Both the position numbers and the translations under genes were made by a program. This document shows, piece by piece, positions 9,687-46,033 of a DNA stretch of 64,000 bases. The stretch comes from a virus. The stretch spans positions 22,133 to 86,132 of IMG/VR virus record IMGVR_UViG_3300043399_000446; one strand, given 5' to 3'. The notes beneath the pieces were generated by a model. The model was not told the DNA's origin and searched no databases. It saw only the letters and a list, made by a program, of their open reading frames with translations. Each line of letters opens with the position of its first letter. Position 1 is the stretch's first letter.

Positions 9687-10232
9687 TTATAATCCGGCCA
9701 TAGCCTTGAAATTTTTAATTTCAACATCTGCGTCATCGTATATAGGTTTGGCACCTATTCCTGCAATCTCACGCATTTCATTTAAGTCACCTTCGGACTC
9801 TTCTTCTATTCTATATTCATGTGGTGAAATTGTTATGACTTGTTTTAATATATTGCTGTCAGCCTCAAATTCTTCTTCGTTGACCATAACAACCCACTCA
9901 GTAGGCTCTATACCTGTTAGTGTTTTTAAATCTGAAATAAGTTCAACTATATGTGCAGGTACTGTACTTCTGCGATTCATTTCAACGAATACAACCCATT
10001 TACCTGGAGATAGTTCACCTTCGCTTATGCTTGCATCAAGTACCCAATCATAGCCCCGCTCGAACCATTCAGCTAAATCTCTACCTGCCATTTCACTATA
10101 AACAACAAATGCTAATGTAACGATGTCGCTATCTTTACCCATTTTAGCAGAGTATTCATCGACTGATACGGTTGAATCCATCATGCCTTCTAAGTCGTGA
10201 TAGTCTAATCCCTCTTTAAGAATTCTTTTCAT
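9687..10232 (-). CDS. Conserved acidic hypothetical protein
   Basis: 181 residues, acidic, starting MKRILKEGLDYHDLEGMMD and ending NFKAMAGL. The central part (WVVFVEMNRRSTVPAHIVELISDL...GIEPTEWVVMVNEEE) looks like an alpha/beta fold. The closing AMAGL resembles the KKLAGLK end of the 703-residue protein elsewhere in this window; meaning unknown. It overlaps nothing and lies 8 bp after the next gene upstream. Confidence 0.6.
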   Translation of the reverse strand: MKRILKEGLDYHDLEGMMDSTVSVDEYSAKMGKDSDIVTLAFVVYSEMAGRDLAEWFERGYDWVLDASISEGELSPGKWVVFVEMNRRSTVPAHIVELISDLKTLTGIEPTEWVVMVNEEEFEADSNILKQVITISPHEYRIEEESEGDLNEMREIAGIGAKPIYDDADVEIKNFKAMAGL

Positions 10233-35238: not shown

Positions 35239-35325
35239 TTTATATTTCCTTTATTGTAAAATTTTGAGGTTTACCGCCTGAGTTATAAGATTATTTAGCA
35301 AAAATTTCAAAAAAGTGCTCAAACC

Positions 35326-35703
35326 GTGCCTTCGAAGGTTCCAAAACATAAATACTTTATGAGACCTATTTGCGAAACCTGTAACAAAAATGTCAGGTCA
35401 ATAAATTACATTAAAAATGGACAATACCATTACCGTAGCCAATGCGATGAGTGTAGAAGAAAGAAAATAAATCTACCACCTAGAAAACCTAATTGGCTCA
35501 GGAGTGGTTATAAGAAAAAACCCGCATGTGATTTATGCGGGTTTAAGTGCATCTATCAATCTCAGATAGTAGTCTATCACATTGATGGTGACTTAGAGAA
35601 CATTGAATTTAATAATTTACGCAGCGTGTGTTTGAATTGTATTGAAGTAGTAAAACGTACAAAGGTTACTTGGCGCAGGGGTGATTTAAAAGTTGACTAC
35701 TAA
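35326..35703 (+). CDS. HNH-like zinc protein, GTG start
   Basis: 125 residues. Three Cys pairs (CETC, CDEC, CDLC) plus CLNC and the segment VVYHIDGDLENIEFNNLRSVCLNC, which follows the HNH pattern (HHIDGN...NLxxLCxxC) although the first His of the pair is Tyr. The C-terminus RTKVTWRRGDLKVDY is a form I recall from small T4-like phage proteins located near structural genes. The only early start is GTG. It is on the strand opposite to gp18 and gp1 and its end overlaps the gp1-like gene by 18 bp. Nuclease activity is not assured. Confidence 0.65.
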   Translation: MPSKVPKHKYFMRPICETCNKNVRSINYIKNGQYHYRSQCDECRRKKINLPPRKPNWLRSGYKKKPACDLCGFKCIYQSQIVVYHIDGDLENIEFNNLRSVCLNCIEVVKRTKVTWRRGDLKVDY

Positions 35704-36390: not shown

Positions 36391-37176
36391 TTATCCCTGT
36401 ACCCAAGTCAACGGCTGTGAATAGTCAACATAACGCTTGAGTTCATCAATCAAACGTTCTTGGTCAGCTTTGCTTTCAGCTTTCATAGCTGAACCATTCA
36501 ATGTTGTGCCACCACCTGGACCCACAATACTACCATATTTTTCACGGGCCTCACCTATGATACCTTTTAGAACTGCTAGTGTATAGTCACCTATCCAAAC
36601 ACCAGCACCTGGATCTTGTAGTAGCACTTCTTCAGGTCTTTGGACATCTGCCCAAATAAGGACTCTCTCGCCTGTTCCTTTAGGGTCACGGACAATACGT
36701 AATACTTTGGTAACAGGGTCAAATGTATAGATAACGTAACCACCAAACATACGTGCAGCCAGTTCTACATAACCTGCGTAAAAGTCATAAGTTGCCATAC
36801 CACCAGCATAGTTATAATTTAGCAGGTAAGTATTAAGGATAGCACTACTAAAAGGATCAAATGAAGATGATGCTGGTCCTGTTTCCATACCCACGGTTCT
36901 GCGGAAGATTGATCTTACGTTTATGAATTCCTGTGGCAATGTATAAGTGTCAACATTCTTGACCACAGTCATTAATGTATATGATTCCGCTGTGGCATTT
37001 TGTGCCCGTTGACGGTAAATTTTAATGGCGTAATTATAAGCAGCTTCAAAATGCTGGGGATCTAACTCCAGGTCTACAATATCACCACCTAATCTTAGGC
37101 GCAGATTTTCAAACATTGCGTTTTTTAATTCGTCTAACGTGTATCCATTAGGTGTATTAAGTATATTAGCTGCCAT
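36391..37176 (-). CDS. 13: Neck protein gp13-like
   Basis: 261 residues. LDELKNAMFENLRLRLGGDIVDLELDP, YNYAIKIYRQRAQNATAES, TYTLPQEFINVRSIFRR, FDPFSSAILNTYLLN, YVELAARMFGGYVIYTF and LKGIIGEAREKYGSIVGPGGGT form the profile I recall for gp13 of T4-like marine phages; T4 gp13 itself is somewhat longer. It joins head and tail with gp14, which is at 40.5 kb on the other strand. Preceded by a GATAAATA box and by the structured RNA region. Confidence 0.75.
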   Translation of the reverse strand: MAANILNTPNGYTLDELKNAMFENLRLRLGGDIVDLELDPQHFEAAYNYAIKIYRQRAQNATAESYTLMTVVKNVDTYTLPQEFINVRSIFRRTVGMETGPASSSFDPFSSAILNTYLLNYNYAGGMATYDFYAGYVELAARMFGGYVIYTFDPVTKVLRIVRDPKGTGERVLIWADVQRPEEVLLQDPGAGVWIGDYTLAVLKGIIGEAREKYGSIVGPGGGTTLNGSAMKAESKADQERLIDELKRYVDYSQPLTWVQG

Positions 37177-37198
37177 AATTTTAATCCATTTATAAATT

Positions 37199-37206
37199 TA
37201 TTTATC
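37199..37206 (-). promoter_or_regulatory. Late-promoter-like motif GATAAATA for gp13
   Basis: 22 bp upstream of the gp13-like ATG, just beyond the end of the structured RNA and its hairpin. Confidence 0.5.
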
Positions 37207-37243
37207 TGGATTTTCTGGTTCTCTAATCATTCCTAGGCAAAAG

Positions 37244-37266
37244 GCGAGTAGATATGCTCTACTCGC
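37244..37266 (-). terminator. Hairpin at the 3' end of the structured RNA
   Basis: Perfect 9-bp stem GCGAGTAGA/TCTACTCGC with 5-nt loop; on the minus strand followed by CTTTTGCC. A moderate terminator that would end a minus-strand RNA. Confidence 0.6.
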
Positions 37267-37629
37267 AAAAATAAAAACCATTCCTTAGGCTCTATTACAG
37301 AGGCGACGATGAATTTAAAGATTAAGGTGGAGGATTGTCTATGTCTCACCTACCCCTCAAGGGGACTTTACCATATTCGCTGCAAAGTCAAAACATTATT
37401 CATCGGGTAGTTTTGACCAGCCTGGGCCCTCTATCGCTATTACCATGACCCAGCAACATCAACCATTAAGATACAGGAAACGTTTCCGTCAAGGGACGGA
37501 CGTTTAGGCATCATAGGGTAGTCCTGTAAATTCGGCGTTGGTCTCACCTGCCACCGTCACCCGTGAATAGGGAACGGATTATAGACACACTCCAGGGCGT
37601 GTGTTTGCCCATTAACCAATAATTATTAC
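37244..37629 (-). ncRNA. Putative structured non-coding RNA, about 390 nt, class unknown
   Basis: A 453-bp gap without coding frames but full of helices. Visible elements (plus coordinates): H-type pseudoknot 37607-37610 with 37595-37598 (GGGC/GCCC) and 37599-37604 with 37585-37590 (ACACAC/GTGTGT); 7-bp helix 37522-37528 with 37472-37478 enclosing a bulged 10-bp hairpin 37479-37504; 8-bp hairpin 37387-37394 with 37410-37417 whose loop bases 37398-37405 match 37307-37314 over 8 bp (long-range pseudoknot); 5-bp helices 37422-37426 with 37449-37453 and 37325-37329 with 37347-37351; CCCC-TTGA-GGGG at 37353-37364. No tRNA-like domain (tmRNA), RNase P core or group I core was recognised. Strand is inferred from the flanking genes and the end hairpin. 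Confidence 0.7.
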
Positions 37630-38499
37630 TTACTTGCTATTTTCGTAAGACCATTTCCAAGTATAACCTTCTTCTAGACCTAAACTGTCACACAATTCAT
37701 CAGTAAAGGTACCATCAATTCGTAATGTATATCTAAATCCTGGTTCAGGATCTACACCATGATAGTCGCGGTTATTGAAAAAATAACTTCTAGCTCCTGA
37801 AGGGAGATAATGTTTTTCTTTATTTTTTTCATCCCATATAAAGCTAGGTCTCCACCCACCATCAAAGAACAAGTTTATATTGTGATCTTTATGTTCTGCT
37901 ACGATACTATCTCTGTGTATAGTTACCCCTGCGTTGGGATAAGTAGTGAAGAACATTATTCTTCCTATTTCTTTGAAAGGTAGTGTTTTTATATATTCTA
38001 GTAGTTTAGGGAAATGCGATGCTGCAGGAGTCCAATTATCATTATTTTGAGTTTTATTCCTGAAGTCACCGTGCTTTAGATAAAGAGCAAAGAACCAAGG
38101 TATAGCTGACCCTAAAGCAAAGTACGCATACTTATAAAATGCCTGTATTTCTTGGCCTTTAGGGGCTTTACTTATCAGATCCAGTAAAGCGTGATGATGA
38201 ATCCCTGAGGGATCTAAAGTAGATAGAATTTTAGTCCATGACCCGTGATTATCATATCGCAATTCTTCTTCAGGGGGTATATCACCATATATCATTCCCA
38301 TCTTGTATTCAGTAGCTAATGCTAATCCTTGGCAACATTCTATATGTAATTCAGTATCCATACTATGGTCGATAAATTGATCCATAGATATTATCAGTTG
38401 TTTTTTGATACCTACACCTTTAGCTCCATATTCTTGGTATTCAAAATGGGGTATTGAAATGTTTCCTATACTGAATATTTTATGTGCTTGGTTGTTCAT
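37630..38499 (-). CDS. 2-oxoglutarate/Fe(II) dioxygenase-like protein
   Basis: 289 residues. The C-terminal half has TIHRDS (HxD iron ligands), INLFFDGGWRPSFIW, and YHGVDPEPGFRYTLRIDG supplying the distal His and the Arg that binds 2-oxoglutarate, as in aspartyl/asparaginyl beta-hydroxylase-like cupins. The first 150 residues are not recognised. Substrate unknown; modification of a virion or host protein is possible. The start overlaps the MazG-like gene by 4 bp. Confidence 0.7.
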   Translation of the reverse strand: MNNQAHKIFSIGNISIPHFEYQEYGAKGVGIKKQLIISMDQFIDHSMDTELHIECCQGLALATEYKMGMIYGDIPPEEELRYDNHGSWTKILSTLDPSGIHHHALLDLISKAPKGQEIQAFYKYAYFALGSAIPWFFALYLKHGDFRNKTQNNDNWTPAASHFPKLLEYIKTLPFKEIGRIMFFTTYPNAGVTIHRDSIVAEHKDHNINLFFDGGWRPSFIWDEKNKEKHYLPSGARSYFFNNRDYHGVDPEPGFRYTLRIDGTFTDELCDSLGLEEGYTWKWSYENSK

Positions 38500-38924
38500 A
38501 AATCTCTTTCTTTTCTATTTTCGCTATAGAAGGGATCAAACTCTCCACCAGGATATCGTGCTTTTAGTTTTTCTACATTCTCAGCAACAACATCATTGGG
38601 ATCGTAACCTAGTGCGCGGCAAGCATTTATCCAATACCAAATGATATCGCCTAATTCACGTTTCATGTGATAGCGATTTTCTTCAGTATAGGGCTTACCT
38701 TGAAACGCCATCTTTTTGACGATTTCACTAAACTCCCCGCCTTCACTTGCCAACCCAATACTTGCGGTAAGTAGTAAGGGCATGTTTAGTTGTAAACTAT
38801 GAACAGCAGCCTGCCTTTCCAACTTATGAATAGAATCTATAAAAGACTCTACATAATTTGATTGGTTGCTAGTTACGCCAGCTACAAACTCTTTGTATTT
38901 GTTTAAGTCGATTTTTTTATCCAT
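38496..38924 (-). CDS. mazG: MazG-like nucleotide pyrophosphohydrolase
   Basis: 142 residues. LLLTASIGLASEGGEFSEIVKKMAFQGK supplies the ExxE helix and RYHMKRELGDIIWYWINACRALG the ExxD helix of the all-alpha NTP pyrophosphohydrolase fold. MazG homologues are frequent in marine phages and may hydrolyse dNTPs or alarmone-type nucleotides; which applies is unknown. It lies 8 bp after the GC-rich gene upstream and may be read from the same sigma70-type promoter. Confidence 0.82.
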   Translation of the reverse strand: MDKKIDLNKYKEFVAGVTSNQSNYVESFIDSIHKLERQAAVHSLQLNMPLLLTASIGLASEGGEFSEIVKKMAFQGKPYTEENRYHMKRELGDIIWYWINACRALGYDPNDVVAENVEKLKARYPGGEFDPFYSENRKERDL

Positions 38925-40195: not shown

Positions 40196-40224
40196 ATTAT
40201 AACAGAGTGCCTATTTATTGTCAA
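40196..40224 (-). promoter_or_regulatory. Consensus sigma70 promoter TTGACA-17-TATAAT
   Basis: Both hexamers match consensus exactly with a 17-bp spacer on the minus strand; the -10 lies 30 bp upstream of the ATG of the 410-residue gene. The spacer starts with ATAAAT, as in the second promoter at 40.4 kb. Confidence 0.85.
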
Positions 40225-40412: not shown

Positions 40413-40441
40413 ATTATGACACGACCCTCATTTATTGTCAA
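40413..40441 (-). promoter_or_regulatory. Near-consensus sigma70 promoter TTGACA-17-CATAAT
   Basis: Perfect -35, one mismatch in the -10, 17-bp spacer, directly upstream of the 64-residue gene. The first 12 bases (TTGACAATAAAT) are identical to the promoter at 40.2 kb. It faces away from the late gp14 box. Confidence 0.8.
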
Positions 40442-45010: not shown

Positions 45011-45961
45011 TTATTCCTTGTTGATACTTACGATAGGATAAGTTACACCAGCGGCTGCATTAGCATCTTCTGCACTATTGAATGTTGCATAAGCAGGATT
45101 TGCATTTTGTAGTAAGGGCGCACTGTTACCAAAAATTTCAAGATTCACATCGCTCAAGCTTTGTACAAATGCTGTAGCAGCATTAGCATAAGTTGCGATA
45201 ATGTTCATTGTATTTGGTGTTAGTGAAGCATTAGCTACGTTAGCTGTTTGACACTGAGCTACTAGGCCACTTGTTGCACCTTGAACTAGATACTTTTGTT
45301 TGCCTTTTTGACGAACAATAAATCCTGGCTCGTTTGTGGCAAAAACGAATGCGGCATCAGTAGCATCAACTTCTGCGTTTGCAGCTAGTTCTAGTTCAGT
45401 ATCACTTGTAATTGAATCTACGTAGCCCACTAATGTACCGTCAGCTAATGTTAGAACTGAACCCACAGCTAGTTCTGTATCAAATGCTGTATCTACACCA
45501 GTAACTGTTGTGCTTGTAGCGTCTGTAGTAATTGTTCCGGTACCTGTTTGACCAATAGCTACACGGCACAATACTTGATTACCATAAATTGCTGTATTAC
45601 CACCGACTACACCATAAGTGTTTGAAATACCAGCTGGATTGTTGAAACCTGAATCAACTACACCAACTGATGCTGCTACACTTTGACCTGTTGTTGCTGA
45701 AAGATTTACAGGTGTATAAGTAGGATTTGCATTTAGAGGTGTCGCTGATACTGTGAAAGTAGAAGCACCGGTAACTTTTAGAATCCAGTATGTTGTACCA
45801 GCAACCAAGCCACCTACGTTACTTGCTGCAACGAATGGCATACCTGCAATAATACCTAGGCTAGCTAATGTCTGTGATACTGTAACTTCTTCTGTACTTG
45901 CGTTTGTTGCTGTGATTGTAAGCACGGCTTGTGCTTTTGCGATTTTTAGAGGACGTCCCAT
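45011..45961 (-). CDS. Probable abundant virion structural protein
   Basis: 316 residues, Ala/Thr/Val/Asn rich, almost free of Cys. Beta-rich stretches (EVTVSQTLASLGIIAGMPFVAAS; GTTYWILKVTGASTFTVSATPL) and KYLVQGATSGLVAQCQTAN with LEIFGNSAPLLQNANPAYATFN at the end. The strong AAAGGAG site, the GATAAATA box and the triple-hairpin leader suggest very high late expression, as for a capsid decoration or fibre protein. No family assigned. Confidence 0.6.
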   Translation of the reverse strand: MGRPLKIAKAQAVLTITATNASTEEVTVSQTLASLGIIAGMPFVAASNVGGLVAGTTYWILKVTGASTFTVSATPLNANPTYTPVNLSATTGQSVAASVGVVDSGFNNPAGISNTYGVVGGNTAIYGNQVLCRVAIGQTGTGTITTDATSTTVTGVDTAFDTELAVGSVLTLADGTLVGYVDSITSDTELELAANAEVDATDAAFVFATNEPGFIVRQKGKQKYLVQGATSGLVAQCQTANVANASLTPNTMNIIATYANAATAFVQSLSDVNLEIFGNSAPLLQNANPAYATFNSAEDANAAAGVTYPIVSINKE

Positions 45962-45980
45962 TTGTTTCTCCTTTTGTGAC

Positions 45981-46033
45981 GGGCGTTCTAGGCCCTACGC
46001 GGTGGGGACCGCATAAACTCTCCCCATGAGAGT
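45981..46033 (-). promoter_or_regulatory. Three-hairpin 5' leader
   Basis: Hairpins (plus coordinates): 45981-45995 GGGC/GCCC; 45999-46012 GCGGT/ACCGC with a CCCC loop; 46017-46033 ACTCTC/GAGAGT. They lie between a late box and the AAAGGAG of the 316-residue structural gene, filling the leader. Likely mRNA stabiliser; autoregulation is possible. Confidence 0.65.

Follow-up and report, generated by a model that had tools for sequence, protein, structure and literature searches.

We found that a 453-bp gap between two genes of an uncultured giant freshwater phage encodes a structured RNA, about 400 nt long, that folds with four pseudoknots, has at least 62 non-redundant homologs, all in uncultured viral contigs, and matches no Rfam family. 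Judged from comparative sequence analysis, the existence of this RNA as a class is near certain. At a probability of about 55%, we read it as a phage RNA of a new class, free-standing and trans-acting, that would be transcribed early, processed and act as a scaffold; the function on its own, that of a trans-acting, processed scaffold RNA, we would put somewhat short of even odds.

A conserved RNA unit and its homologs

The window analysed, a 64-kb part of an IMG/VR record of 86 kb, contains a single long gap of this kind (37177-37629), lying between the minus-strand ORFs 36391-37176 and 37630-38499. A preliminary description had called the gap unique in the window and free of reading frames, and both points hold: the other long gap (35239-35685, 447 bp) is occupied by a gene on the opposite strand that relatives carry at the same position, and no ORF of at least 50 aa was found within 37177-37629. 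The RNA is encoded on the minus strand, for which folding was better than that of shuffled sequences at z -2.9, compared with z -1.9 for the plus strand. The conserved block starts near 37623, a few bases past the upstream stop codon, and the 5' limit must lie at or before 37619 because a pseudoknot strand (PK1, below) lies there. The element had been described as about 390 nt at 37244-37629; its size and structure are borne out, while its limits are corrected to about 37623 (5') and about 37226 (3').

About 37226-37623, minus strand: structured RNA, the whole conserved unit, defined by homologs and covariation, with its 5' end placed by a pseudoknot strand and its 3' end by a repeat
36391-37176, minus strand: gp13-like neck / head-tail adaptor Ad2 (phrog_211, 3.5e-22), the downstream neighbour
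37630-38499, minus strand: 289-aa ORF directly upstream of the RNA, without family match
38496-38924, minus strand: mazG pyrophosphatase gene (PHROG 3e-45, Pfam PF03819), the conserved upstream neighbour

The neck protein of the window is nearest to those of RaK2, PA5oct and Atu_ph07, each at less than 60% identity. In most homolog-bearing contigs the RNA likewise sits between mazG and gp13; the 289-aa ORF, previously labelled an oxygenase, matched nothing in PHROG, Pfam or NCBIfam and is not seen among the genes that flank the other homologs. ARAGORN found no tRNA in the 64-kb window.

A gp13-based search of relatives recovered three related RNA types (73-77% identity). The exact 17-mer GACATAGACAATCCTCC was present in at least 80 stretches of viral contigs, most of which hold the full RNA (nhmmer), and divergent members were added by three further pattern scans followed by nhmmer. 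After removal of near-duplicates, the 62 homologs comprise 57 aligned sequences (365-474 nt, median 381, pairwise identity as low as 48%) together with L226, L229, L231, L234 and L245. The family is non-coding, with a median longest stop-free run of 43 codons and many indels across homologs; a protein-coding reading was rejected on these short runs and on the lack of an ORF of at least 50 aa in the window's gap.

Outside uncultured viruses, blastn with four family members found no match in cultured phages (INPHARED), and R1, a covariance model of the 3' domain, did not find the RNA in Atu_ph07, PA5oct, RaK2, PBECO4 or Phosso, a 15-bit match in Atu_ph07 looking like chance. PLSDB plasmids contained no match, and an exact-motif scan of 84,980 prokaryote genomes yielded no homolog; its 31 exact 17-nt-motif matches were chance by profile (best E 0.0012).

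Helices, pseudoknots and twin repeats

Pair counting across the 57 sequences found 86.6% of cells paired, compared with 74.8% when partners were shuffled and 39-43% when they were slid. Double-changed cells numbered 615 versus 181 in shuffles, with double changes at 64 of the 88 pairs, and none of 500 shuffles attained the observed values. In place of R-scape, a tree-based null of our own that approximates it gave 15 column pairs at an expected count <=0.2, all of them within predicted helices or the long-range pairing PK3, and all but one at least 90% complementary. This null corrects roughly for the relatedness of the sequences, which the partner-swap z scores given below ignore. Significant covariation is thus found in many divergent homologs, as a new structured RNA class should display, and the helices listed in the preliminary description proved both conserved and covarying.

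37554-37577, minus strand: P3 hairpin CCGU/ACGG (99% paired, swap z 8.8)
37534-37548, minus strand: P4 hairpin GGUG/CGCC (swap z 11.2)
37472-37528, minus strand: P5/P5b/P5c arm (UACAGG/CCUGUA; AAACGU/ACGUUU; CCGUC/GACGG)
37420-37454, minus strand: P7 hairpin with invariant loop GUAAUWGYGAUAGA (99% paired)
37387-37417, minus strand: P8 hairpin GUCAAAAC/GUUUUGAC (swap z 18.8)
37303-37380, minus strand: P9 (GCGA/UCGC) around the P10 three-way junction
37326-37350, minus strand: P10b hairpin with hyperconserved loop GAGACAUAGACAAUCCUC (100% paired)
37244-37266, minus strand: P12 3' hairpin GCGAGUAG/CUACUCGC, inner GUAG/CUAC conserved, 3' strand invariant

P5 is 98% paired, with both-side changes at all 6 pairs and tree-null pairs at E <= 0.05, and the highest-scoring covarying pair lies in P7 (G=100, null E 0). 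The main P9 helix has 95.9% of its cells paired, P10 shows both-side changes at all 5 pairs, and the P10b loop is exact in most homologs. The 9-bp hairpin said to end the element is present at 37266-37244 (P12), but its conservation is limited to the inner part; the 3' strand, which is invariant, has a second partner in the P7 loop. A closing P1 helix (GGGCAAA/UUUUGCC) from the minimum free energy fold of the window was rejected, as it is lost in relatives whereas the H-type pseudoknot is kept.

Four pseudoknots join the 5' end to the P4 loop (PK1), two interleaved 5' stems (H-type), the P8 loop to a 3' strand (PK2) and the P7 loop to the 3' end (PK3).

37614-37619, minus strand: PK1 5' strand UUGGUU, pairing with the P4 loop (swap z 11.1)
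37538-37543, minus strand: PK1 3' strand GACCAA in the P4 loop (swap test)
37595-37610, minus strand: H-type stem S1, GGGC 37610-37607 with GCCC 37598-37595 (swap z 7.9)
37585-37604, minus strand: H-type stem S2, ACACAC 37604-37599 with GUGUGU 37590-37585 (swap z 13.6)
37398-37404, minus strand: PK2 loop strand GAUGAAU in the P8 loop (swap z 12.5)
37308-37314, minus strand: PK2 3' strand AUUCAUC (pair counts and swap test)
37434-37438, minus strand: PK3 loop strand AGCGA in the P7 loop (covarying GYGA/UCRC in each of the 57 sequences)
37242-37247, minus strand: PK3 3' strand UCGC-C-U (pair counts and swap test)

The H-type pseudoknot and PK2, the latter as an 8-bp loop-to-3'-strand pairing, had been proposed from the window alone, and the swap tests of own against exchanged partners, together with the pair counts, show that both are real. 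S1 has both-side changes at 3 of its 4 pairs; PK2 is paired in 97% of cells over the 57 sequences and is compensated in L093 (UUAUGAAAG/CUUUCAUAA) and L147 (CCGUGGUGG/CCGCCACGG). PK1 and PK3 are added here. Across the family, PK1 pairs a 5'-end UUGGUY with a P4-loop RACCAA, and compensatory pairs include UUGGUC/GACCAA, CUGAUU/AAUCAG, UUGCUC/GGAGCA, UUGACC/GGUCAG and CUAAUC/GAUUAG, among others. PK3 pairs a P7-loop WGYGA with a 3'-end UCRC-n-W (swap z 5.0); its long-range pair 37438-37241 is among the tree-null results, and it is compensated anew in L229, found later (GCAA/UUGC). Since PK1 takes up the 5' end and PK3 the 3' end, both ends of the RNA are locked inside the fold.

The 3' hairpin is flanked on either side by a GCCU-AAGAAUG-like word:

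37279-37290, minus strand: direct repeat copy 1, GCCUAAGGAAUG (concerted change with copy 2, z 11)
37228-37238, minus strand: direct repeat copy 2, GCCUAGGAAUG (concerted change with copy 1)

Across the family, the two copies take on one and the same new word (AGTAATG, AGAAGAT, AAAAGATAG, AAGCAG, AAGAAA, TGCTGATT, GCATG or GCATA), and the copies of one RNA match each other over 6.25 nt, versus 5.25 nt when swapped between RNAs. The RNA and its flanks contain no convincing third copy or complementary strand. The 3' motif UAUCUACUCGCC-GCCUA was discarded as an independent element, its occurrences outside the RNA being chance only. In our reading, the twin repeats may be two sites recognised by one external partner.

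Promoters and distribution among phages

The promoters around the RNA are these:

40196-40224, minus strand: sigma-70-type promoter TTGACA-N17-TATAAT (12/12, TG extended) of the upstream operon
40413-40441, minus strand: second extended -10 sigma-70 promoter (11/12)
37199-37205, minus strand: core GATAAATA of the T4-type late promoter for gp13, lying downstream of the RNA

The two sigma-70 promoters (40224-40196 and 40441-40413) are the only strong extended -10 promoters of the window, and both precede the operon that runs from a 410-aa ORF through mazG and the 289-aa ORF to the RNA. Most homologs whose contigs extend far enough have promoters of this type 0.9-3.8 kb upstream. The late core ATAAATA occurs in none of 57 loci within 110 nt upstream of the RNA, in none inside it and in 43 of 57 at most 115 nt downstream; the same late promoter stands before gp13 in relatives that lack the RNA. 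This promoter layout speaks against the earlier placement of the RNA in a late operon and favours early transcription by a host-type polymerase; the RNA is probably transcribed early. Both sigma-70 promoters share TTGACAATAAAT, possibly a phage-specific early promoter motif.

A terminator-like hairpin stands directly before the RNA in ~17 of 57 homologs (counted by eye); in L101, L109, L143, L195 and L119 it takes the form GGGC..GCCC plus a T run, ending ~8 nt before the RNA start. Such a hairpin does not easily fit simple read-through, and anti-termination or processing would therefore be needed.

Close gp13 relatives without the RNA have the order mazG stop, short spacer, late-promoter core ATAAATA and gp13, so the RNA behaves as a clean presence/absence insert; judged from this gene order, it is an accessory module of RaK2/PA5oct-like jumbo phages. 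As the majority of close gp13 relatives lack it, it is dispensable. Model R1 found one copy per RNA-bearing contig, two in the 277-kb contig G023, and none elsewhere in 19 contigs of RNA-less gp13 relatives (fragments of up to 139 kb). The two G023 copies (L225, copy 1; L226, copy 2) are strongly diverged, which suggests specialised paralogs.

A second group of homologs has different neighbours (L093, L100, L197, L200, L202, L209, L211, L231 and L234). The terminase of one member of this group, L241, is nearest to small Vibrio-phage terminases, at only ~25% identity, and that of the jumbo group (L236) shares ~50% identity with the terminases of PA5oct and Phosso; since these terminases are unrelated, the RNA is present in unrelated phage lineages. 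Downstream genes vary in ten homologs (L088, L093, L100, L147, L197, L200, L202, L203, L208 and L209). In the spacer that separates the RNA from the following gene, small repeated hairpins such as CACGAAYAAAACGAAGTTTTRTGAAGTGC, and a second one of the GTGTCTCTGTAGGAGACAC type, were observed in L100, L197, L200, L202, L209, L231 and L234; they look like dispersed phage intergenic elements.

Known RNA families and possible roles

At the gathering threshold, Rfam 15 gave no match in the RNA of the window region or of 13 homolog loci, and a lax search, which took in the window RNA plus two divergent homologs, reached a best E of 0.21. This best regional score (21.9 bits, gathering score 70) belongs to Xoo1 sRNA (RF02240), which shares one short chance-like stretch and no common fold with the RNA; PART1_2 was likewise rejected as a chance match. 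Separately, a freshwater-2 RNA (RF02980, 63.3 bits) lies at 45959-46033 on the minus strand, directly upstream of the ORF at 45011-45961, and a second in L143 at 9936-10012; this 84-nt cis-regulatory motif is unrelated to the RNA at 37226-37623. Neither Rfam 15 nor the open-access papers searched contained a description of the RNA. The proposal of a large pseudoknotted non-coding RNA, probably of a new class, is upheld by the lack of an Rfam match and by the covarying helices.

That the RNA is instead a very divergent group I intron, tmRNA, RNase P RNA or 6S RNA missed by covariance models seems extremely improbable. Some homologs contain GAUAUAGUC, which resembles the group I S element weakly, at the word level; however, the P7-type pairing GACUA/UAGUC does not covary, most homologs having GACUA with an uncompensated UAGAC, and Intron_gpI gave no match at E up to 5-10 in the window RNA or the two divergent homologs. 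ARAGORN found neither tRNA nor tmRNA, Rfam no tmRNA, and neither a P4 core nor a covariance-model match for RNase P RNA was found at gathering or lax thresholds, in agreement with the preliminary description, which had recognised none of these cores. We also regard as very unlikely a ribozyme, or a mobile-element or intron remnant, for which the concerted repeats would be sites of cleavage or insertion: that the RNA is cleanly inserted between conserved genes, is present in two unrelated lineages and has paired direct repeats would suit it, but Rfam gave no intron or ribozyme match even at E up to 10, the RNA contains no endonuclease or reverse transcriptase ORF and is not inserted within a gene, and its repeats co-change over long times, unlike target-site duplications. 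A cis-acting attenuator or leader, controlling gp13 or ending transcription of the upstream operon, appears quite unlikely as well. The RNA does lie at an operon boundary directly before gp13 in most jumbo-phage contigs and ends in a hairpin; against this, gp13 has its own late promoter beyond the RNA in 43 of 57 loci and the downstream genes change, both of which disfavour cis-regulation of gp13; moreover, no U-tract follows the conserved 3' repeat, and the conserved fold extends over hundreds of additional nt.

Like ROOL, the RNA is phage-encoded, large and rich in pseudoknots, and like GOLLD it is a phage/prophage orphan with an elaborate fold. However, ROOL env-120 has 659 nt and ROOL often lies close to tRNA islands, whereas GOLLD is often >800 nt and its expression rises at lysis (PMC12286853); the RNA described here has about 390 nt, stands beside mazG and gp13 in a window without any tRNA and, by its promoter layout, would be transcribed early. 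Neither covariance model matched the window RNA or the homologs searched, in keeping with the poor fit to both noted at the outset. ROOL, GOLLD and OLE form oligomers (PMC12286853), and an RNA-only homo-oligomer, a cage or ring that encloses or displays something and in which some pseudoknots are intermolecular kissing contacts, would account for the many loop-loop pairings and hyperconserved loops of a large orphan phage RNA. We consider this unlikely given how much shorter the RNA is than these cage-formers and its lack of an Rfam match to either; covariation signals are alike for intra- and intermolecular pairing.

In the preferred reading, that of a trans-acting, processed scaffold, a host-type RNA polymerase would transcribe the RNA early from a sigma-70 promoter of the mazG operon, and the RNA would be excised from the operon transcript; we infer excision because no late promoter lies just upstream and no U-rich terminator follows the 3' repeat. 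The excised RNA would be protected by having both ends held within internal loops, its invariant loops GUAAUWGYGAUAGA and GAGACAUAGACAAUCCUC would bind a host or phage partner, and the 3' module, in which a hairpin separates two near-identical repeats that co-vary, may serve as a changeable recognition part. More tentatively, the RNA may be a new kind of early RNA machine passed horizontally among large phages of unrelated lineages, with pseudoknot-locked ends and a swappable 3' module co-evolving with its partner, that directs phage-specific binding or processing of nucleic acid or protein from host or phage.

Phages have yielded few large structured RNAs so far, GOLLD and ROOL being the examples treated in PMC12286853, and what these RNAs do is poorly understood. 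The family described here is of intermediate size, with a well-resolved secondary structure backed by 62 divergent sequences, occurrence in two unrelated lineages and an unusual pattern of co-varying repeats, which makes it a concrete object for structural studies and for questions about the large RNAs of phages.
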